Shown here: in pieces, positions 27,101-37,175 of the stretch | Position numbering within the stretch: position 1 is the stretch's first letter | Layout: every line of letters starts with the position of its first letter | Assembly (NCBI GenBank): GCA_016788705.1 | Contig: JAEUSQ010000049.1 | Span: forward strand, 1 to 43,959 | Reading direction: 5' to 3' | Source: Bacteroidetes Order II. bacterium | GTDB taxonomy: Bacteria > Bacteroidota > Rhodothermia > Rhodothermales > UBA2364 | DNA length: 43,959 bases | Notes under the pieces: model-generated | What the model saw: only the letters and a program-made list of their open reading frames with translations | Told to the model about the DNA's origin: nothing | Databases searched by the model: none | Translations under genes and position numbers: made by a program

Positions 27101-29002
27101 ATGTCAAACACCACACGAATTCAGGCCAGATCCAGTCATGCCATGCGCTTGGAGAGATTGCCTGTCCTCATTTTTGATGATCCGGCACAAATGGCGCGAC
27201 AAGTTGCCAGAAAAGTGGCCAACCTTATCCAAGACCGTGCCGTTACCGGAAGAATGGCCGTATTGGGCCTTCCGACAGGTTCTACACCTATTGGCGTTTA
27301 TCGTGAATTGGTTCGGATGCACCAAGAAGAAGGGTTGGATTTTTCCAATGTCATCACGTTTAACCTCGACGAATATTACCCGATGAAGCCCGATGCGCTG
27401 CAAAGTTATCATCGGTTTATGGAGGAAAATCTTTTCAAACATGTCAATGTTCCTCGTAAGAATATCCATATTCCCCGTGGCGATATCCCCCGTGAAGAAG
27501 TGGACACGCATTGCGATGAATATGAATGGCAAATTAAAAAGGCGGGTGGAATAGACCTGATGTTATTGGGCATAGGTCGAAGTGGGCATATTGGCTTCAA
27601 TGAGCCGGGTTCTCGCCGCGACGATCGTACCCGAATGGTTGTTTTGGACGAAGTGACACGCCGAGATGCTGCTGGGGATTTCTTCGAAGAGAAAAATGTC
27701 CCTCGCGAAGCCATCACGATGGGGGTAGGGTCAATTCTAGAGTGCCGTGAAATCATCCTAATGGCCACGGGTGAACACAAAGGTTATATTATCCGAAAAG
27801 CCGTAGAAGAAGAACCCAATAGCAGTGTGACCGCCTCGTTTTTGCAGGAACACCTCCAGTGTACCTTCTATGTGGATCGGGCGTCGGCGAGTGAATTAAC
27901 ACGCGAAAAAACACCTTGGATTGTGGGTGATGTTTCATGGAGTGCCGAAATGGCCCGTAAAGCGGTTGTTTGGTTGGCTAAAAAAATCAAAAAACCAATC
28001 CTGCATCTGGAAACCGCAGACTTTCACCACCACCATATGCACGATTTGGTCAATGCTCATGGGACTGCGGATGAACTGACGTATAAAATCTTTATGGAGC
28101 TTCGGGATCGTATCAAATACCAGCCTGAATTGCCCAAGAAAAAGTCTTGTATCTGCTTTAGTCCCCATCCAGACGATGATGTCATCTCGATGGGAGGGAT
28201 GCTCGGAAAATTAGCCCAGAACAAAAATGATGTGACCGTTGCTTACATGACGAACGGATCGGTTGCCGTATTTGATATGGATGTGGAACGCCATCTGAGG
28301 TTTCTAGAGATGTCTGCACGGCTCCACGGCGGTGCGGAAGGAGAAGCCCGTATCAAAGCCTTTACACGTCCGATTTTTGATTTTATCACCCACAAAAAAC
28401 CCGGCCAAATAGACACTGCCGAGATTCAACAGTTGAAGGCTTATATCCGATACACCGAAGCCATTGCCGGAATTGAAGTAATGGGCTTGCACGAAAAGGA
28501 CGCACGTTTTCTGGATATGCCCTTTTATAAGACAGGGGAGGTAAAAAAAGCCCCCATTGGCGAAGACGATGTTCAGATTGTTTTAGACCTCTTCAATGAG
28601 CACAAGCCAGATCATATTTATGTGGCAGGGGATTTGTCTGATCCGCATGGAACACACCGAATGTGTTATACGGCCATCAAGCGGGCATTAGAGAAATATA
28701 ACCAACAAGAAGGGGTGAAGAAACCACTCGTTTGGCTATACCGTGGGGCTTGGCAAGAATGGGAAATTGAGAAAGCCGATATCTTTTTACCCATGTCTAA
28801 AGCAGACCTAAGCCAAAAAATTGACGCCATCTACAAACATGAAAGTCAAAAAGACCGGGCCCTTTTTCCTGGTTCGGATGCCCGTGAATTTTGGGAACGG
28901 GCGCGCGACCGCAATGTGGGCTTAGCCCGCGAAATGGATGCCCTTGGTTTACCAGAATTTTATGCGGCGGAGGCCTATGTGACCTGCCACGAAATGCCAT
29001 AA
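27101..29002 (+). CDS. nagB: Glucosamine-6-phosphate deaminase fused to a PIG-L deacetylase domain
   Basis: A 633-residue two-domain protein. Residues ~20-290 are the NagB fold: LGLPTGSTPIGVYREL, FNLDEYY (Asp90) and LLGIGRSGHIGFNEPGS (His163, Glu168). In E. coli NagB the loop is GVGNDGHIAFNEP with catalytic Asp141; that place is Ser161 here. Residues ~348-590 are a PIG-L/LmbE-type zinc deacetylase: FSPHPDDDVISMGGML (ligand cluster 356-359) and GDLSDPHGTHRMCY. NagB turns GlcN6P into fructose-6-P and ammonia; PIG-L enzymes remove N-acetyl from GlcNAc derivatives. The fusion suggests both steps of GlcNAc use in one polypeptide. Such fusions are known in Bacteroidota. It stands alone. Confidence 0.9.
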   Translation: MSNTTRIQARSSHAMRLERLPVLIFDDPAQMARQVARKVANLIQDRAVTGRMAVLGLPTGSTPIGVYRELVRMHQEEGLDFSNVITFNLDEYYPMKPDALQSYHRFMEENLFKHVNVPRKNIHIPRGDIPREEVDTHCDEYEWQIKKAGGIDLMLLGIGRSGHIGFNEPGSRRDDRTRMVVLDEVTRRDAAGDFFEEKNVPREAITMGVGSILECREIILMATGEHKGYIIRKAVEEEPNSSVTASFLQEHLQCTFYVDRASASELTREKTPWIVGDVSWSAEMARKAVVWLAKKIKKPILHLETADFHHHHMHDLVNAHGTADELTYKIFMELRDRIKYQPELPKKKSCICFSPHPDDDVISMGGMLGKLAQNKNDVTVAYMTNGSVAVFDMDVERHLRFLEMSARLHGGAEGEARIKAFTRPIFDFITHKKPGQIDTAEIQQLKAYIRYTEAIAGIEVMGLHEKDARFLDMPFYKTGEVKKAPIGEDDVQIVLDLFNEHKPDHIYVAGDLSDPHGTHRMCYTAIKRALEKYNQQEGVKKPLVWLYRGAWQEWEIEKADIFLPMSKADLSQKIDAIYKHESQKDRALFPGSDAREFWERARDRNVGLAREMDALGLPEFYAAEAYVTCHEMP

Positions 29003-29384
29003 GCCCATCTGATCTAAAGAAAGGGGGTCTGTTTAGATAGATTCCCTTTTTGATTTTTTATGAAGTTAATCTGGTTAACGAAGTGGTAAAAGGTTTCTGT
29101 TTGGGGGGGGCGTTTTTTAAAGCCCACCAATTTGGGTTCTGTTAACCTCACGGATAGACTAAGTGTTGAAAAAACAGAGACCATTTCTGAATCGAAAGGT
29201 GATTTTTTGGGAGAAGTGTACGCCAAACGGATGGCCTTGGTCACCCATCAAAAAATGGTACACCAAAAAAGCGCTTGCGGTATGGGATTAAAATTGGTAC
29301 TATTCCCCAAAATGAGGTCATATTTTTGGATTTGTGCTATACATTATGAACTTTCTCTCATCTCCCGATAAAACCCGATCAATC
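29003..29384. other. Intergenic region upstream of the outer-membrane operon
   Basis: About 380 bases, T-rich just after the nagB stop, with no coding frame I can support. It carries two GTTAAC hexamers (29077-29082 and 29140-29145) and a promoter-like element at 29321. No riboswitch fold was recognised. Confidence 0.35.
29294..29328 (+). promoter_or_regulatory. Bacteroidota-type promoter of the outer-membrane operon
   Basis: TATTTTTG at 29321-29328 matches TAnnTTTG exactly, with TTG at 29294-29296 as -33 element (24-base spacer). The preferred start codon of the receptor gene is 57 bases downstream. The same octamer precedes the LexA-like gene. Confidence 0.5.
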
Positions 29385-32300
29385 ATGAAACGCAAATGCT
29401 GGAGTATCCTGCTTTTGCTTGTGCTGTACACTGGTACGGCTTGGGCACAAAGCGGAAAAATTGCCGGACGGGTTACTGATGCCGCAACTGGGCTGGGGCT
29501 TCCCGGTGTTACATTGCAGGTACTTGGAACCACGCAGGGCAATGTGTCGGACACGGAGGGTTATTTCTCCATTATTAATGTCCGACCGGGAACGTACACG
29601 ATTCGCGTCTCCTTCATTGGTTACGAGACCGTAAATGTGAGCGATGTGCGGGTGAGTACCAACCTGACTACCCCGCTGAATGTACAACTAAAAGAAGAAA
29701 CGACCCTAACGGAAGTAACGGTTATTGCCGAACGTCCCGTAGTCCAAAAGGATGTTTCTAACTCGACCGCCAGTATTGGGGCACAGGAAGTGGCTCGCCT
29801 ACCCGTAGCCTCGGTTACAGGAGCTGTGGGCCTACAAGCTGGTATTCAAGGACTCTCGTTTCGGGGTTCAGGCTCCGACGAATTGTCTTTTAACGTCAAT
29901 GGCCTCACCCTGCGCGATGAACGCGACAACTCGCCGATTACCAATATCCCGCTGTCTTCGGTAGAGGAAATTCAGGTGCAAACAGGGGGCTTTAATGCCG
30001 AATATGGCAACGTAAGGTCTGGTGTGGTAAACGTGATCACGAAGGAAGGAAAGCGGGATCGCTATGAAGCCAGTATTAATGTGCGGTATAGTCCGCCAGC
30101 ACAAAAAAATATTGGGCCAGCAGCCAATGACTTAAATTCGTACTGGATTCGCCGTTTCATAGACCCACAAGTGGCGATGACCGGAACAGGCTCTTGGGAC
30201 CAAGCCACGCGGGACCAATATGGAACCTTTGAAGGATGGATCGCCGTTTCCGAAAAACGATTAAAGGACGATGATCCAACCAACGATATGACGCCGGAAG
30301 CCTTGCAAAAAGCATTTTTATGGCAGCATCGGAAGAATATGCAGATCAATCGTCCTGATTACAATGTGGACTTTGGATTTGGCGGTCCTATTCCTGGCCT
30401 GAACAAAATCGGGAATACCCGCTTTTATGCTTCTTTTATCCAAAACCAAGACATTTACATGATTCCACTCAATACCGATCGGTATCGAGATTATAATGGC
30501 CACATTAAAGTTACATCGGACGTAGCGAAAGGCATGAAGTTCTCGCTGGAAGGCATGATGGGGCGGCAAAGTGGGACTTCTGCAAGCCGTTCGGGTGCTC
30601 CAGGCTTTTTCCGTTCTGCCTCTGGTATCGCCAGCAACCTGACAAGTGTGAGTTTTATTGATTCGCGGATTTTCTCGCAGGATTATTGGAACCCAACCGA
30701 GGTAAATAGCAAGATGTTTGGTGCTACATTCAACCATGCATTGAACGGTAAAAGCTATTATGAAATTCAGGCGGCTTATTTGGCTACGGAATACGATACG
30801 GTTCCGGGAGAAGGTCGGGATATTTCGATTATACAAACCTTTGGGGGTGTTGGTTTTGACGAAGGCCCTTATGGCTTTATGCCCAATCCTTCTAATGGCG
30901 TAGATGGGATGCGGATGGGTGTAGGGATGTCTAACGCTCGCGACTCCAGTTTTGTTGGGGTCTTTAACCTAAAGGGGAACTATACCAATCAACTCAATCG
31001 TTTTCTACAAGTTCGGACTGGTTTTGAGCTAAACCAGAGCAACACCAAAGTGAATTATGGCAACTTTGACTCATACTTGCCCTCCAGTAATTCACAGTCC
31101 AAATGGGATCGCTCGCCCATTCGTGGGGCACTGTTTGCACAAACCAAATTGGAATTTAATGGAATGGTAGCCAACCTCGGTTTGCGTGCAGACTATTTCC
31201 ATGCGGGCGGAGACTGGTATGTTTTAGACCCATTCTCGAATGTATTATCTTCCAAAGGGTCTCCCGAATTGGAAAATCAAGAAAAGGCCCCAACGAAGAA
31301 GATTTTGGAGTTTAGCCCGCGCGTAGGTGTTTCTTTCCCCGTCACAACGCTTTCCAAGTTGTATTTCAACTACGGCCACTTCCGCTCCATGCCTGCCCCC
31401 GAGAACTTGTTCTTGGTGCGGTATGCCACCACAACCGGACAAATAACCCGCATCGCCAATCCGAATAACCCATTACCCAAAACGGTTGCCTACGAATTGG
31501 GCTACGAACAGTCGGTTGCGGAGCAATTCTTGATTCGTGTTGCCGGATATTATAAAGACGTATCTCTCCAGCCTTATCTGGTAAACTATGTCTCTAAAAA
31601 CAATACCGTAAACTATACTACATCCGAACCCAATTTGTATGAAGACATTCGTGGCTTCGAAGTGACGCTTTCTCGGAATCGCGGTTGGTTGCAAGGATTT
31701 GTCAACTTTACCTATATGGTGAATTCTTCAGGCTACTTTGGCTATGGAACGGTTTATCAAAATCCGCAAGCCATGCGGAACTATGTAAACGACGATGCGG
31801 TACGCCGTGCTGCCCAATCCAAACCGCAACCATACCCCTATGGGCGGTTGAACATAGACTTGATTTCGCCGGATGATTGGGGGCCTAAAGTGGGAAATAT
31901 GAACCCCTTGGGTGGATGGAAGACTAGTGTAATTGTGTCTTGGCAAGATGGCGGTAAAGCAACCTGGGTGGGCGGGGGCTCTAAACCAGGTGTCGAGCGC
32001 AATGTGGATGTGGTGGACTTTTGGAACATGAACCTGCGGTTTGCCAAGTCCTTTTATATCGGAAAGAGGGGGGTAGAGTTTTTTGCTGATGTGTTTAACG
32101 TATTGAATACCAAACGCTTATCCTCATATGGCTATTTCGATGGCGTGGACATCAACAAATATCGCCTTTCCTTACATTTGCCGGAATCGCCCGACTATCC
32201 CAACATCCCAGGCAATGACAAATTCGGAACGTTCCGTAAGCCAGGAGTGGCTTACCAGCCCACGACTGGCATCCAAAATCGAAGCAGCGTCACAGCTTCC

Positions 32301-32492
32301 GGAGATGTATTGTATTATGAGTTCGATACCAAGTCCTATATCCAATTCAAAGATGGTCAGTGGGTGGATGCGGATAAAAGTTTTGTGGACGCTGTACTGA
32401 ACGAAAAACGCTACATTGACATGCCAAATCAGGAATTTCTGAACTTCTTAGACCCACGTGACTTCTGGTTTGGACTACGGATTAAGTTGTAA
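29385..32492 (+). CDS. TonB-dependent outer-membrane receptor with CarboxypepD-reg domain
   Basis: The ATG at 29385 gives 1035 residues starting with a signal peptide (CWSILLLLVLYTGTAWAQ). A CarboxypepD-regulatory domain (IAGRVTDAATGLGLPGVTLQ to VQLKEE) follows, then the plug (LSFNVNGLTLRDERDNSPI, VEEIQVQTGGFNAEYG, GVVNVITKEG), then a ~800-residue barrel with many aromatic-rich strands. It ends in DFWFGLRIKL, the usual aromatic-terminated strand. SusC-type receptors move large nutrients with TonB energy. No SusD lipoprotein follows; instead the partners are a T9SS-like secreted protein, a PorV-like barrel and an IPT lipoprotein. Substrate unknown. An earlier in-frame start at 29334 would place polar residues before the signal peptide and is less likely. 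Confidence 0.88.
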   Translation: MKRKCWSILLLLVLYTGTAWAQSGKIAGRVTDAATGLGLPGVTLQVLGTTQGNVSDTEGYFSIINVRPGTYTIRVSFIGYETVNVSDVRVSTNLTTPLNVQLKEETTLTEVTVIAERPVVQKDVSNSTASIGAQEVARLPVASVTGAVGLQAGIQGLSFRGSGSDELSFNVNGLTLRDERDNSPITNIPLSSVEEIQVQTGGFNAEYGNVRSGVVNVITKEGKRDRYEASINVRYSPPAQKNIGPAANDLNSYWIRRFIDPQVAMTGTGSWDQATRDQYGTFEGWIAVSEKRLKDDDPTNDMTPEALQKAFLWQHRKNMQINRPDYNVDFGFGGPIPGLNKIGNTRFYASFIQNQDIYMIPLNTDRYRDYNGHIKVTSDVAKGMKFSLEGMMGRQSGTSASRSGAPGFFRSASGIASNLTSVSFIDSRIFSQDYWNPTEVNSKMFGATFNHALNGKSYYEIQAAYLATEYDTVPGEGRDISIIQTFGGVGFDEGPYGFMPNPSNGVDGMRMGVGMSNARDSSFVGVFNLKGNYTNQLNRFLQVRTGFELNQSNTKVNYGNFDSYLPSSNSQSKWDRSPIRGALFAQTKLEFNGMVANLGLRADYFHAGGDWYVLDPFSNVLSSKGSPELENQEKAPTKKILEFSPRVGVSFPVTTLSKLYFNYGHFRSMPAPENLFLVRYATTTGQITRIANPNNPLPKTVAYELGYEQSVAEQFLIRVAGYYKDVSLQPYLVNYVSKNNTVNYTTSEPNLYEDIRGFEVTLSRNRGWLQGFVNFTYMVNSSGYFGYGTVYQNPQAMRNYVNDDAVRRAAQSKPQPYPYGRLNIDLISPDDWGPKVGNMNPLGGWKTSVIVSWQDGGKATWVGGGSKPGVERNVDVVDFWNMNLRFAKSFYIGKRGVEFFADVFNVLNTKRLSSYGYFDGVDINKYRLSLHLPESPDYPNIPGNDKFGTFRKPGVAYQPTTGIQNRSSVTASGDVLYYEFDTKSYIQFKDGQWVDADKSFVDAVLNEKRYIDMPNQEFLNFLDPRDFWFGLRIKL

Positions 32493-32558
32493 TACAGTTT
32501 AGGCCTGTCTGCAATTGCAGAACAGGACTGGTTGAAACATCAATAGGCGAAAATTTTT

Positions 32559-34649
32559 ATGCGTAAGTATTTTAAACTCCTGCCTTTGTTCTTGTTGCTG
32601 GTAGGAGCCTTCCAGATGACAAAAGCTCAGTTTACCAATAGATGGCTCTCTGCCGGCAGTTTCCATAACTGGTATGCCGAAGTGGGGAGCGAGGTAGAAT
32701 CAGCCGGATTTGTTAAAACCCAGCAAGATGGATGGCGTTGGCCCGGCATTTATCGCTATACCGATATGCAGGCTGCCCGAGGCATGTGGATTGGTGCGAA
32801 GAATGTCACCGATGACAAAGGCACTAAATTTGATACCCGCGTGGTTCATATCGGGCCACGGGTGAGTGGTGCCAACGAGTTCTTCCCGATAACCTTTAAG
32901 TTGATCAGCCGTTTTGAATTGCCCTCTGTCTTTGTAGATGGAGACCCCTCCGAGCCAGAAGCGGCCATGATTGTGGATGAGGTGGATCCTAATTTGGATG
33001 CCGATTTTGCCCTCGAAAACGTGGTGAACAACCTCTTGGGCCTGACCATGAAACGCAGGGTTTTGCAATTCTCTCAGGAGTTCAATGATAACTACCACGT
33101 GCAGGAATATACCTTTACCAATACTGGCAATACCGATGGGGATGCCGATATCGAATTGCCAAATCAGACCCTTACCGATGTCATGATTTATTTCCAAACC
33201 CGGATGGCTGTTGCAAAAGAAACCCGCTATGTGGTGGGCAACGGCTCTGGTTGGGGGATGAATACCATGATTGACGCACGGGGCGACGGACTTCGTCCAG
33301 ACCCAGCCAACCAAAATTTCCGTGCACAGTTTGCGTGGCATGGCAAATTTCCTGCTTTTACCCGATACGATAACATTGGAGGGCCGATCCTCAAGAGTGC
33401 GCTTCCGGCACTACAAATTGCCTCGGCGGATACATTAGGACGTTTGGGCGCTTCCCAGTTTGCGGGAACCGTGGTGCTCCATGCCGATAAGTCGGCCACC
33501 GACAAGGCAGACGATGTGAACCAACCGTTTACCATGAACTACATTGGTTCGGATGACAACTACCAATCCCGCAACGACGCTTTTAATGTTTCCCAAATGG
33601 AAACCGAGTACCGCGTTATGACCCAAGGTAAAAAACCACGTCATGCCTTTATTGTAGAACCCACCGGAGATCCGGGCTTTAAGGCGCCCACCGGAGACCC
33701 TGCATTGGGTACGTCTGGCGGATTTAGCAATGGGATGGGGTTTGGCCCCTATACCCTGAAGCCAGGTGAAAGCATTAAGATTGTCTTGGCCGATGCGGCG
33801 GCGGGCTTAAGTCGGGAGGAAAATATCCGGGTTGGTCGCTTGCTTCAAAAAGGCCAGATCAGCGTAGCACAGAAAAACGATATTGTTTTCCAAAGCCGCG
33901 ACTCATTGTTCCAGACCTTCCGGCGGGCGATTGACAACTACAAAAGTGGCTTTAAAGCACCAAAAGCCCCCTTACCACCGAAGCAGTTGGAGGTAAAGTC
34001 TGGTGGCGATCGTATCCAGATTTCATGGACGCCGTTTGCTGGTGCACAAGTAGATGGTTGGGAAGTGTATCGGACCAAAAATAGCTATGACTCTACCTAT
34101 ACAATGATCAAGCGGTTGGGTCCATCGGAAACCAGTTTTGATGATACTACTCCTATTCGGGGGTTGGATTATTTTTATTACGTGCAAGGTTATGTGGATA
34201 AGGCTAAGAATACCGGTGGGCCGGGTACGCCAGCTAACCGTGTCTTGAGAAGTAGCCGCTATTTTGCCCAATCTTATGCACCAGCAAAGCTTAAACGGCC
34301 TGCCGGAACAGCTTGGGATGGTGTACGTATTGTACCGAACCCCTATACCATCGCGGCTGGAACAGACCTACGGTTCTCGCAACGAGACGCCTTGGGCTTC
34401 TTCGACATTCCGGGTATTTGTTCCATTGAAATTTATACCGAATTGGGCGAATTGGTGGACAAATTTGAGCATACCGATGGGTCTGGAGATGCTTATTGGG
34501 ACCACACTACCTCTTCCCGGCAGTTGATTGTTTCTGGCATCTATATTGCGGTCATTACTGCCAATGAAGACCAACTCAACAAAACGACGGGGGCCGTAGA
34601 GTTTCGGAAAGGTGAGCGTAAGATCATGAAATTTGTCGTTATCCGCTAA
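32559..34649 (+). CDS. Large secreted protein with FN3-like and T9SS-type C-terminal domains
   Basis: A 696-residue protein. The signal peptide KLLPLFLLLVGAFQMTKAQ is cleaved near Ala-Gln. The central part has no family I know and carries acidic motifs such as DGDPSEPEAAM. Residues ~470-555 look like a fibronectin-III domain (PPKQLEVKSGGDRIQISWTP, VDGWEVYRTKNSYDSTY). The last ~90 residues resemble the FlgD-like/T9SS type A sorting domain: VRIVPNPYTI, CSIEIYTELGELVDKFEH, a WDH turn, VSGIYIAVITA and final IMKFVVIR. It is probably exported across the outer membrane by a type IX-like path and held at the surface. It lies 66 bp after the TonB receptor. Confidence 0.72.
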   Translation: MRKYFKLLPLFLLLVGAFQMTKAQFTNRWLSAGSFHNWYAEVGSEVESAGFVKTQQDGWRWPGIYRYTDMQAARGMWIGAKNVTDDKGTKFDTRVVHIGPRVSGANEFFPITFKLISRFELPSVFVDGDPSEPEAAMIVDEVDPNLDADFALENVVNNLLGLTMKRRVLQFSQEFNDNYHVQEYTFTNTGNTDGDADIELPNQTLTDVMIYFQTRMAVAKETRYVVGNGSGWGMNTMIDARGDGLRPDPANQNFRAQFAWHGKFPAFTRYDNIGGPILKSALPALQIASADTLGRLGASQFAGTVVLHADKSATDKADDVNQPFTMNYIGSDDNYQSRNDAFNVSQMETEYRVMTQGKKPRHAFIVEPTGDPGFKAPTGDPALGTSGGFSNGMGFGPYTLKPGESIKIVLADAAAGLSREENIRVGRLLQKGQISVAQKNDIVFQSRDSLFQTFRRAIDNYKSGFKAPKAPLPPKQLEVKSGGDRIQISWTPFAGAQVDGWEVYRTKNSYDSTYTMIKRLGPSETSFDDTTPIRGLDYFYYVQGYVDKAKNTGGPGTPANRVLRSSRYFAQSYAPAKLKRPAGTAWDGVRIVPNPYTIAAGTDLRFSQRDALGFFDIPGICSIEIYTELGELVDKFEHTDGSGDAYWDHTTSSRQLIVSGIYIAVITANEDQLNKTTGAVEFRKGERKIMKFVVIR

Positions 34650-34733
34650 CCATTTAACCATCAGAGGAAAAAAATGAACACAACTGATGCATCCAAATGG
34701 TTCGTAGAGAACGACCATGAAACGAGGAACACC

Positions 34734-35741
34734 ATGAAAATGACCAATATCTTTGTCTTTTTGTTGCTCGTGATGCCTGTAAGCCTGTGGGCACAAAAAG
34801 ACAATCAACAAAAATTAGCCCAAACGGGGATGAAGTTCTTAGCGGCTTCGCCTGATCCGCGTGCCGCTGGTTTGGGAGATGCCATAACGGCCTTGGAAGG
34901 TGGGGCGGAGATGATGTTCTACAATCCAGCAGGGATGGCCAATATGAATGGTAAGTTGAGCGCCTCATTTGGTCAGATGGCTTGGATTGCCGACATCAAC
35001 TACAACCTAGCAGGTGTGGCCTTTAAGGCTGGAAACATCGGAACGTTTGGTGTAAGTGTGATGAATGTGGATTATGGTGAAATTAAAGCCACTGTTCGTG
35101 CAGATAATGATCGTGGCTATTTAGATTTACCGAACAGCATTCATCCGGTGGCCATGTCGGTTGGTTTGAGTTATGCGCGTTCTTTGTCGGATCGCTTTGC
35201 CATTGGAGGCAGTGTAAAACGTGTTACCCAAGACCTTGGTAGTGCTGCTACACAATTCGACAAAACGTTGGGCGATTATGTGTACGAGTCCTACAAGCAA
35301 TCCGTCATGGCCTATGACTTTGGCGTTTTATATAAAACAGGATTTAAAAGCCTGCAATTTGCTTTTAATGCGCGCAACTTTGCCAAAGAGATAAAATATG
35401 AAGAGGAAACCTTCCAACTCCCTCTTTCCATGCGCATGGGGATCTCGATGGATTTGTTGGACTTCTCGGCGATGGGCCAAGACCATAATTTATTACTCTC
35501 GGTTGATGCTGAACACCCCCGTGATTTTCCGGAGGTTCTTAAAGTTGGGACAGAGTATTCTTTCCGGAATTTGCTCTCTTTACGCGCCGGATATGCCTTC
35601 CCTTCAGACCAACAGGGCCTTACTTTTGGTGGAGGGGTACAATTGAAACGGGGCGACCGAAAGGTACAGGCGGATTACTCGTACACCCAATTTGGGATAT
35701 TCAATGCCGTTCAGCGGATCGGTATTAAAATTGGACTCTAA
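34734..35741 (+). CDS. PorV/PorQ-family outer-membrane barrel
   Basis: Starting at the ATG at 34734 the protein has 335 residues with a signal peptide (IFVFLLLVMPVSLWAQ). Just after it come GMKFLAASPDPRAAGLGDA and AEMMFYNPAGMA, the pattern typical of PorV/UPF0164-type barrels, then repeated amphipathic strands with aromatic belts, ending FNAVQRIGIKIGL. PorV shuttles T9SS substrates to the attachment complex; its place directly after a protein with a T9SS-type tail fits that. The longer frame from 34674 adds 20 polar residues before the signal and is unlikely. Operon with its neighbours. Confidence 0.8.
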   Translation: MKMTNIFVFLLLVMPVSLWAQKDNQQKLAQTGMKFLAASPDPRAAGLGDAITALEGGAEMMFYNPAGMANMNGKLSASFGQMAWIADINYNLAGVAFKAGNIGTFGVSVMNVDYGEIKATVRADNDRGYLDLPNSIHPVAMSVGLSYARSLSDRFAIGGSVKRVTQDLGSAATQFDKTLGDYVYESYKQSVMAYDFGVLYKTGFKSLQFAFNARNFAKEIKYEEETFQLPLSMRMGISMDLLDFSAMGQDHNLLLSVDAEHPRDFPEVLKVGTEYSFRNLLSLRAGYAFPSDQQGLTFGGGVQLKRGDRKVQADYSYTQFGIFNAVQRIGIKIGL

Positions 35742-35794
35742 CGGCAGTTTACGGCCTTTTGCATAGGCCGGAGCGCTATCAAGCCTTTACAGAC

Positions 35795-37120
35795 ATGAAG
35801 TACATTACACGTAAATTTCCCCTCTTCGCATTGCTGACCATTTTTTGGGCAGGCTGCGACTTTAACGGCGATAACTCGCTGTTTAATGAAGAAAACCTCG
35901 GCTCAGATCCTGACCCAACGGTTACAAGCATTACAAGTGTAGAATCGCCACCTTTTGCCGGAATTGATGTAATCTCCATCAAAGGGTCGAATTTTTCTTC
36001 GGATCCGACAAAAAACATGGTCTATGTTACATTCTATCTCCCCGCTGTAGATGCTGCTGGTAATATCATCAGCACAGGTGGAAAACCCGATCGGGGCAAG
36101 GTGCGAGATGCCATTCGTGCTACTGTCCTTACGGCAAGTGCAACAGAACTAACGATACGGGCGCCCATCCGCCCAACGTTTGACCCCAAAGACCCGAAAA
36201 CCCGTCCATTGGAAGAAGTGGATATTCGGGTGGGAACTTTGGGTGCGGAAAATTTCTCGGCAACGTCTAAGGTCCTTATTGCGCCATCGTTTGAACCTGT
36301 TAATACTTTTGATGCCAAGACAGAAGAACCATTTGGTATGACGAACGACAAGGCCAACAATATTTATGTCTCGCTCTTTGTTAGTGGAAGTGCAGCGGGG
36401 GTCTTTACCTATGCGCCAGATGGAACCCGTTCTCAGTTCCTTACCGCTGCCAATGTACAAAGCCAGAAGTTTGATGACATGCAGTATCGCGACGATGAAG
36501 GTTATCTTTACGCGGTTCGCGGGTTGAGGGCTGTTTTCCGGTTCAAGAAAAACAGCAACCAAGAGACCTACGTGGCCATTCCGACGACCTTGGAATCAGC
36601 TCGTCTTGTGACCTTGGATTTTGATGCGAACAATAACCTTTGGGTGGGCGGCAATAATGCAAACTTATATCGGGTGAAGCCGGATAAGACTACGAAAAAC
36701 TATGCCTTCGTCGGCGACGTCCGTTCTATTCGTGTTTCCGGCACAAATTTGTTCGTATTGGCCAAAAAAGACAACCAATTTAGCGTTTTCCGCTTCCCAA
36801 TAGACGGCAACAGCGACTTAGGTACACCTGTGAAAGTCACAGACCTGAATCTCGGAACAAATGAAGCCTTTGCGATTGACCTTGCAAAAAACGGAGACAT
36901 TTTTGTAGCAACCAACCGAAATCCAGATCCTTTGTTGCTCATTAGCAATGGCCAAGTCTCCACGCTCTATCCGGGCACTTTCATTGGAATGGCCCGTTCC
37001 TTTGCTTGGGGTGCAGATCCGATCCTCTATGTTGGACAGGGGGTTTTGCCTTTGGGAACCTCTACTTCCATCGCCGCAAACTTCTTGATGATGAACACCC
37101 GAAAGCAAGGGGTTCGATAA
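35795..37120 (+). CDS. IPT/TIG-domain lipoprotein with beta-propeller-like repeats
   Basis: From the ATG at 35795, 441 residues. The signal KFPLFALLTIFWAG before Cys19 is a lipobox. Residues ~45-145 form an IPT/TIG-like immunoglobulin domain (TVTSITSVESPPFAGIDVIS, IKGSNFSSDP, ELTIRAPIRPTF). The C-terminal ~290 residues hold repeated blades of an NHL/SMP30-like propeller: DDMQYRDDEGYLYAVRG, LVTLDFDANNNLWVGG, SIRVSGTNLFVLAKKD and FAIDLAKNGDIFVATN. The order TonB receptor, secreted protein, PorV barrel, surface lipoprotein suggests a joint surface complex. It is the last gene before a terminator at 37148. Confidence 0.75.
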   Translation: MKYITRKFPLFALLTIFWAGCDFNGDNSLFNEENLGSDPDPTVTSITSVESPPFAGIDVISIKGSNFSSDPTKNMVYVTFYLPAVDAAGNIISTGGKPDRGKVRDAIRATVLTASATELTIRAPIRPTFDPKDPKTRPLEEVDIRVGTLGAENFSATSKVLIAPSFEPVNTFDAKTEEPFGMTNDKANNIYVSLFVSGSAAGVFTYAPDGTRSQFLTAANVQSQKFDDMQYRDDEGYLYAVRGLRAVFRFKKNSNQETYVAIPTTLESARLVTLDFDANNNLWVGGNNANLYRVKPDKTTKNYAFVGDVRSIRVSGTNLFVLAKKDNQFSVFRFPIDGNSDLGTPVKVTDLNLGTNEAFAIDLAKNGDIFVATNRNPDPLLLISNGQVSTLYPGTFIGMARSFAWGADPILYVGQGVLPLGTSTSIAANFLMMNTRKQGVR

Positions 37121-37147: not shown

Positions 37148-37175
37148 AAGGGCAGGTTAATACTTGCCCTTTTTT
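37148..37175 (+). terminator. Intrinsic terminator of the outer-membrane operon
   Basis: AAGGGCA (37148-37154) pairs with TGCCCTT (37165-37171), followed by a T-run to 37175. The last T is immediately followed by the ATG of the MFS gene. Confidence 0.72.

Follow-up and report, generated by a model that had tools for sequence, protein, structure and literature searches.

Can a TonB-dependent receptor take as its surface partner a protein exported by the T9SS, and would such a partner be served by a PorV-type barrel of its own? The question is raised by four adjacent genes in a 43,959-nucleotide stretch of DNA (here called the window), a single contig from a genome of 4.28 Mb with 99.9% completeness. 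A first-pass annotation of this DNA described the four genes as a self-contained surface uptake or adhesion complex with a dedicated secretion helper. We have examined the genes, their conservation and their relatives in the same genome, and we propose a model in which the T9SS would supply the binding half of an uptake complex.

Gene content and borders of the cassette

Four open reading frames on the same strand fill positions 29385-37120, with intergenic gaps of 66, 84 and 53 nt; the genes and end points agree with those given in the first-pass annotation. We refer to the products of the second and third genes as CARGO and PORV. The features are as follows.

29018..29051, + strand: terminator-like hairpin at the upstream border, after a NagB/PIG-L fusion gene; 15 pairs, with a T tail
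29385..32492, + strand: TonB-dependent receptor of a non-SusC family, with signal peptide, CarboxypepD_reg-like domain, plug and beta-barrel
32559..34649, + strand: CARGO, with signal peptide, predicted beta-supersandwich (about residues 25-440, plus a linker helix), FN3 and a C-terminal type A-like T9SS sorting domain
34317..34646, + strand: C-terminal sorting domain of CARGO, with VPNPY, IYTELGE and a C-terminal Lys
34734..35741, + strand: PORV, a PorV/PorQ-family outer-membrane barrel and dedicated paralogue
35795..37120, + strand: surface lipoprotein (gene 4), with lipobox (WAGC), IPT/TIG-like domain and beta-propeller
37148..37171, + strand: terminator-like hairpin at the downstream border, after gene 4; 10 pairs

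The receptor starts at the ATG at 29385, which lies within a GTG-started reading frame, and CARGO has 696 residues. The case for the two border hairpins lies in their placement and stem length, since the 11 terminator-like sites in the window do not exceed the 12.5 found in shuffled sequences. A scan of the window for sigma-70 promoters gave no signal (6 sites against 13.2 in shuffles). The NagB/PIG-L neighbour might suggest amino-sugar uptake, but this reading is weak: a terminator-like hairpin separates that gene from the cassette here, and NagB-like genes were found at 10 of the searched loci and directly upstream only in the genus of the window and one other family.

Gene 1 is a TonB receptor, with matches above cut-off to CarbopepD_reg_2 (71.3 bits, cut-off 32.2) and to Plug (28.6 bits, cut-off 23.9). 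A strict TonB-box pattern, which is a crude one, occurs in only 51 of 81 receptors. The protein had been called 'SusC-like', a label that we rejected: at E<=0.1 the receptor gave no match to TIGR04056, the SusC model, and none of the ten window proteins scanned matched a SusD family in Pfam. For gene 4 the lipoprotein reading is borne out by a lipobox Cys that is invariant in 17 of 17 aligned sequences, and the IPT/propeller part shows as a TIG score of 14.6 bits (below the cut-off of 20.9) and weak propeller matches.

Conservation of the gene order

We searched for CARGO in 60 genomes including its own, and 57 of them gave a match of some kind, which in many cases covered just the tail. Of the twenty regions retrieved (L034-L053), 18 (L034-L050 and L052) hold the four genes in order; at L051 the receptor is cut by the contig end, and the paralogue locus L053 has CARGO alone, near a contig end. 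At ten further loci, each with a CARGO paralogue (L062-L071), the order receptor, CARGO, PORV recurs, with two exceptions: the contig of L070 ends before any PORV is seen, and that of L069 ends within PORV. The IPT lipoprotein had no match at any of the ten. Sampling the phylum evenly, we found CARGO at E<=1e-30 in 79 of 394 genomes. A MAG named UBA2364 holds a CARGO that is 98% identical, and many other top named matches are Rhodothermales.

The same order was then counted at loci from named genomes, using profiles of the four proteins applied to the best 79 of 193 matches; at least 12 of these 79 duplicate other relatives in the comparison. They span Rhodothermota, Balneolota, Ignavibacteriota, Calditrichota and KSB1 (Rhodothermales, Balneolales, Ignavibacteria, Melioribacteraceae, Caldithrix/Calditrichota, KSB1 and one record titled Chitinophagaceae). 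Among these best 79 of 193, the receptor lies directly upstream of CARGO at 71 of the 77 loci with room for it (6 absent, 2 at a contig edge), PORV lies downstream at 69 of 73 (4 absent, 6 at an edge) and the lipoprotein follows PORV at 62 of 70 (8 absent, 9 at an edge). Four loci (L092, L123, L132 and L149) have CARGO without recognised partners, and at some loci of Ignavibacteriales, Caldithrix and KSB1 the receptor-CARGO set occurs twice in tandem (L089, L091, L127, L145, L147 and L153). The order receptor-CARGO-PORV-lipoprotein is thus kept across several phyla, far beyond chance, so that one outcome named in the first-pass annotation as refuting its proposal, a gene order that is not conserved, did not occur. 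Distance correlations between the genes are 0.83-0.95 over the 71 of 101 cassettes in which all three genes were long enough, the rest being left out; we do not take this as proof because species descent would explain it.

When all open reading frames of the window were clustered with those of 78 named loci (79 loci together, from the best 79 of 193), two further genes emerged. Gene 5, a secreted propeller protein with scattered propeller matches, is present at 52 of the 79 loci, always on the same strand and at a median of about 4.6 kb after the start of CARGO, and all 34 members scanned have a canonical type A tail. A sixth gene, GHL10 glycosidase-like, lies near the cassette at 38 of the 79 loci, downstream in some groups and upstream in others; GHL10 was matched in 41 of 41 members, and a sorting tail was found in 28. 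GHL10 occurs within 10 kb of the CARGO orthologue in at least 14 of 21 genomes; the genome of the window and two congeners are among the seven without it in that distance among the matches listed. Neither gene 5 nor GHL10 is found at the window site. According to excerpts of two papers, GHL10 proteins include both Cwp19, a peptidoglycan lytic transglycosylase, and DogH, an enzyme that converts starch to maltose (PMC6016235; PMC9967864).

PORV is a separate paralogue in a genome with a T9SS

The organism has core parts of a T9SS. Its SprA translocon scores 1602 bits (cut-off 200), and SprA is above cut-off in 59 of the 60 genomes searched and in 17 of the 18 named genomes with the cassette, the one miss being a 2.3 Mb MAG (G060). 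The PorU sortase (1030.4 bits, cut-off 420) is encoded directly upstream of the canonical PorV (270.2 bits, cut-off 250), and the genome has a PorQ (231.7 bits, cut-off 220). Absence of the T9SS core genes had been named in the first-pass annotation as an outcome against its proposal. Most of those looked for are present, but GldM (PorM), one of the porK/L/M/N/T set for which it had advised a check, was not detected, TIGR03517 giving no match in this genome and none in control genomes either, and PF12081 matching in 0 of 21 genomes with its sole control match below cut-off.

As first described, gene 3 is PorV-like: it matches the PorV_fam model NF033709 with 200.1 bits (cut-off 90), as do 22 of 22 aligned PORV members. 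It falls below the cut-offs of both equivalog models, with 90.9 bits against 250 for PorV (NF033710) and 103.4 bits against 220 for PorQ (NF033711). Ten matched pieces in the genome correspond to nine genes of the PorV/PorQ family, since two pieces on contig C7 are one gene. Apart from the canonical PorV and PorQ there are a PorV2-like copy (287.7 bits, below its cut-off of 325), an unassigned copy at L059, and five that stand third in a trio of receptor, tail protein and PORV, namely that of the window and those at L054-L057. The genome therefore has four more trios of receptor, sorting-tail protein and PorV-family barrel, which the first-pass annotation had missed along with the two commonly associated genes, its four genes being otherwise correct. 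We sampled 35 PORVs from cassettes for a phylogenetic tree, and all of them fall into a single clade (SH-aLRT 97) that excludes the genome's PorV, its PorQ and its remaining copies; some of the outer branches are long, and where they join is uncertain. We therefore rejected the possibility that PORV is a generic housekeeping PorV, which had been named as an outcome that would count against a dedicated helper.

The predicted structure of PORV (mean pLDDT 83.5) is closest to PorV with the RemA sorting domain bound (8gl6; Z 33.1, rmsd 5.3 over 284 residues) and next to PorV 6h3i (Z 32.6, rmsd 3.6 over 279 residues). FadL follows at Z 29.3 and entries containing BamG at Z 25.6-24.6, values that serve as a ranking of folds only. 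A sequence search of the PDB with PORV gave PorV (1.5e-14) as the sole match at E<1e-3, relatives of FadL appearing only above 0.002. In Flavobacterium johnsoniae the cargo tail is held by the PorV loops and SprA, and cargo exits tail-first with PorV, as described in the available part of PMC10994853. By its modelled fold, PORV would be a PorV-type shuttle that collects the sorting domain of CARGO from SprA.

The sorting tail of CARGO

Gene 2 had been said to bear a sorting-type C-terminus. The tail of CARGO scores below cut-off against the type A model TIGR04183 (12.5 bits, E 0.11; cut-off 23) and likewise against CHU_C, and 11 of 26 CARGO members match TIGR04183 at E<=1, the best at 2.7e-6; over 80 other tails in the same genome are above the TIGR04183 cut-off. 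By profile-profile comparison the canonical type A tails found in gene 5 proteins align with the CARGO tail over 76 columns, up to the last residue (E 4.1e-5, probability 70). The model of the tail is beta-rich, with an Ig-like C-terminal domain at the very C-terminus that is homologous to type A tails. In 26 aligned members the Gly of the beta3-beta4 motif (G630) is invariant and K691 is found in at least 90%. This Gly and the C-terminal Lys matter for T9SS export according to portions of PMC11285876 and PMC10994853. The assignment of a sorting tail consequently stands, on the profile alignment and the two conserved residues, with a TIGR04183 score that is below cut-off.

The tails of the four other trio proteins align with that of CARGO at E 3.1e-14 over 104 columns, which is closer than the canonical type A tails, and their passengers did not align. 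We built a model of this tail class from 14 tails, five of them from the same genome and hence recovered by construction. Beyond the five trios its best match in the genome is C18:56825 (3.4e-18), followed by C39:296086 (1.1e-8), which we call PorZ-like from its propeller-rich sequence; PorU is matched weakly (E 0.005). Conversely, the PorZ model NF052228 matches 20 of 26 CARGO members. No PorV-family gene was found within the 18 kb taken around C18:56825, so the pairing of this tail class with a PorV-family gene holds for five of six cases in the genome.

The passenger of CARGO

No sequence family was matched in a Pfam scan of the predicted supersandwich region of CARGO. In the predicted structure (mean pLDDT 82.6) residues 23-513 resemble a GH94/GH116-type beta-supersandwich, the nearest relatives being those of carbohydrate phosphorylases and GH116 (Z 18.9, rmsd 3.8, 272 aligned residues, 8% identity). 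GH94 and GH116 enzymes have a catalytic alpha/alpha barrel after the supersandwich. Past residue 462 the CARGO model is beta-rich (FN3 and sorting domain) and lacks the helical barrel, hence CARGO is, on the modelled fold, more likely to be a binding protein than an enzyme; a supersandwich does not in itself point to a ligand.

A model for the cassette

We propose that the cassette encodes a SusCD-like uptake complex of the outer membrane whose binding partner is exported by the T9SS and held by a dedicated barrel, a reading to which we give about an even chance. CARGO, made with a signal peptide, would cross the outer membrane through the SprA channel, drawn out by a sorting domain that binds the PORV loops, and PORV would act as a private PorV-type barrel in place of the housekeeping PorV. 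Once exported, CARGO may stay on PORV, like PorZ on PorQ and PorU on PorV. We favour such retention over shuttling alone because the tails of PorZ and PorU are uncleaved and the proteins anchored by PorQ and PorV respectively, as reported in the sections available of PMC7463736, PMC8545088 and PMC11285876. At the surface the supersandwich/FN3 part of CARGO would lie beside the TonB receptor in the role of SusD, and the IPT/propeller lipoprotein could serve as a second binding part or as a lid, as BtuG does on BtuB. Elsewhere, in most of the other genomes, the propeller protein, GHL10 or both would be secreted by the T9SS and act ahead of the complex. The substrate to be imported would be extracellular and is probably a glycan. 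The model draws on the conserved order, the clade and predicted structure of PORV, the tail class with its further trios, the supersandwich fold and the nearby GHL10. Weighing against it are the lack of gene 5 and GHL10 at the window site, the tail scores below cut-off, the failure to detect GldM, the tail protein C18:56825 without a PorV-family neighbour, the receptors that lack the TonB-box pattern and the four loci where CARGO stands alone. Of the original proposal, the surface unit and its dedicated PorV-type helper are retained, given the conserved order and the separate paralogue, and the SusC-family receptor is not.

The recurrence of a glycosidase-like gene near the cassette and of the TonB receptor in first place (71 of 77, among the best 79 of 193 loci) speaks for uptake and against the idea that the four proteins form an adhesion or surface-coat complex that holds the cell to polysaccharide. 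In favour of adhesion, adhesins often contain FN3, IPT and propeller domains. The part of PMC12618676 available treats type B cargo served by SprF-like shuttles as putative adhesins. On balance we consider adhesion improbable. The least probable of the alternatives is that PORV imports a hydrophobic compound in the manner of FadL, with CARGO and the lipoprotein feeding it and the T9SS serving CARGO only as a generic export route. The PORV model does lie near FadL, TodX and CymD (Z 29.3-29.0) and has a weak Pfam match to Toluene_X, but a sequence search against solved structures places PorV (1.5e-14) ahead of the FadL relatives (all above 0.002), the PorV_fam score is 200 bits, and with a TonB receptor in the cassette a second importer would be superfluous.

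A different role for the same proteins would be that of a second attachment or sorting complex, in which CARGO-PORV and the propeller lipoprotein process or hold other T9SS cargo and the TonB receptor is structural or energising rather than an importer. We regard this as unlikely, though less so than adhesion. The tail class resembles that of PorZ (NF052228 in 20 of 26; C39:296086) and weakly that of PorU (E 0.005); PorZ is itself a propeller protein whose tail is uncleaved, according to an excerpt of PMC8545088; and T9SS cargo is encoded nearby, by gene 5 and by many of the GHL10 genes. The cassette, however, is without a sortase-like gene, PorU, PorV, PorQ and a PorZ-like protein are already encoded elsewhere in the genome, and four more trios with differing passengers point to many substrates rather than to one machine.

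Should this model be right, the T9SS would install the binding half of TonB-driven transporters, beyond releasing enzymes or adhesins, and paralogues annotated merely as "PorV/PorQ family" would be private shuttles or anchors. It would also provide a testable uptake system for several phyla on which little laboratory work has been done, and a simple rule for finding others, namely a receptor, a sorting-tail protein and a PorV-like barrel in a row.

Comparison with known systems

Among the open-access papers searched we found none on a cassette of TonB receptor, sorting-tail protein and PorV paralogue, and the combination of a TonB receptor with an apparently T9SS-exported partner and a private PorV paralogue is a new make-up for an uptake-type cassette. 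We put at slightly short of even the chances of a broader view, that it represents a third class of T9SS cargo and shuttle besides type A/PorV and type B/SprF, in which every PorZ-like tail protein goes with a PorV paralogue and a TonB receptor of its own; genomes across the FCB phyla would then each hold several counterparts of SusCD that are assembled by the T9SS, with the T9SS directly building nutrient transporters.

We considered the BamG/BamH pair of the Bacteroidota BAM since it joins a barrel of the FadL type, BamG, to a lipoprotein at the surface, and that architecture is shared with the cassette. The reading is not favoured: the PORV model is nearer to PorV (Z 33.1) than to BamG (Z 25.6), and BamH has a carbohydrate-binding module fold, in contrast to the IPT and propeller of the cassette lipoprotein (BAM as described in the portion available of PMC12611786).

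A SusCD utilisome comprises a TonB receptor, a surface substrate-binding protein, further surface proteins and a secreted glycosidase, and the cassette with its neighbours has the same components. It differs in having a non-SusC receptor and a binding protein that is apparently a T9SS product with a signal peptide rather than a lipoprotein. BtuG is a propeller. The cassette shares with the vitamin B12 system BtuB-BtuG the combination of TonB receptor and surface lipoprotein lid (PMC10404256, from an excerpt), whereas BtuB-BtuG has a receptor of another family, no T9SS-delivered partner and no dedicated PorV.

With PorZ-PorQ and PorU-PorV the cassette has in common a surface protein, here putatively T9SS-exported, with its own PorV/PorQ-family barrel and the PorZ-like tail class, and in the proposed model the tail would be retained as theirs are; it departs from them in its TonB receptor and propeller lipoprotein, its supersandwich/FN3 passenger and its lack of a sortase. 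In the passages available of PMC12618676, a single PorV recognises every type A tail, and the type B/PorP-SprF pairs of F. johnsoniae consist of a cargo gene followed by a gene for a dedicated shuttle, with many pairs per genome. The cassette follows this second arrangement, but with barrels of the PorV family and a tail that is type A-like.

The genome that contains the window has SprA, PorU, PorV and PorQ. GldM was not detected in this genome using TIGR03517, nor with PF12081 in 21 genomes (this one and 20 relatives); the T9SS motor in the window's order may be divergent or of a different kind. At locus L060 (10480-13095), an inactivated M6-like metalloprotease, classed as T9SS-dependent (NF052323), lies downstream of a canonical PorU-PorV.

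The same genome, G000, carries four additional trios of receptor, large sorting-tail protein and PorV-family gene:

L054 trio, G000 contig C7
L055 trio, G000 contig C7
L056 trio, G000 contig C65
L057 trio, G000 contig C38

The tail proteins of these trios are 1068-1284 aa long, and a Pfam scan of them returned zero families above their own cut-off. An orphan protein of 702 residues with the same tail class as CARGO, the cassette's secreted protein, is encoded on contig C18 (L169:7029-9137), and no PorV-family gene was found in the 18 kb examined around it. Elsewhere in this genome, the fifth gene of the cassette has a homologue (C46:44301-47399), inside a 1035-aa frame whose C-terminus is a type A tail.

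The upstream neighbour of the receptor in the window is:

27101-29002, NagB/PIG-L fusion gene (PRK02122-like), immediately 5' of the receptor

This fusion also adjoins the receptor upstream at L045, L047, L048 and L052, and the arrangement is found in the window's genus and one other family of its order.

Variant cassettes were seen at other loci. Receptor-CARGO sets are doubled in tandem at L089, L091, L127, L145, L147 and L153, and at L091 and L147 just a single lipoprotein gene is seen, 3' of the second set. Downstream of a cassette with a CARGO paralogue (L065:9626-12540), one FG-GAP/ASPIC-UnbV and one TPR protein take the place of the IPT lipoprotein.
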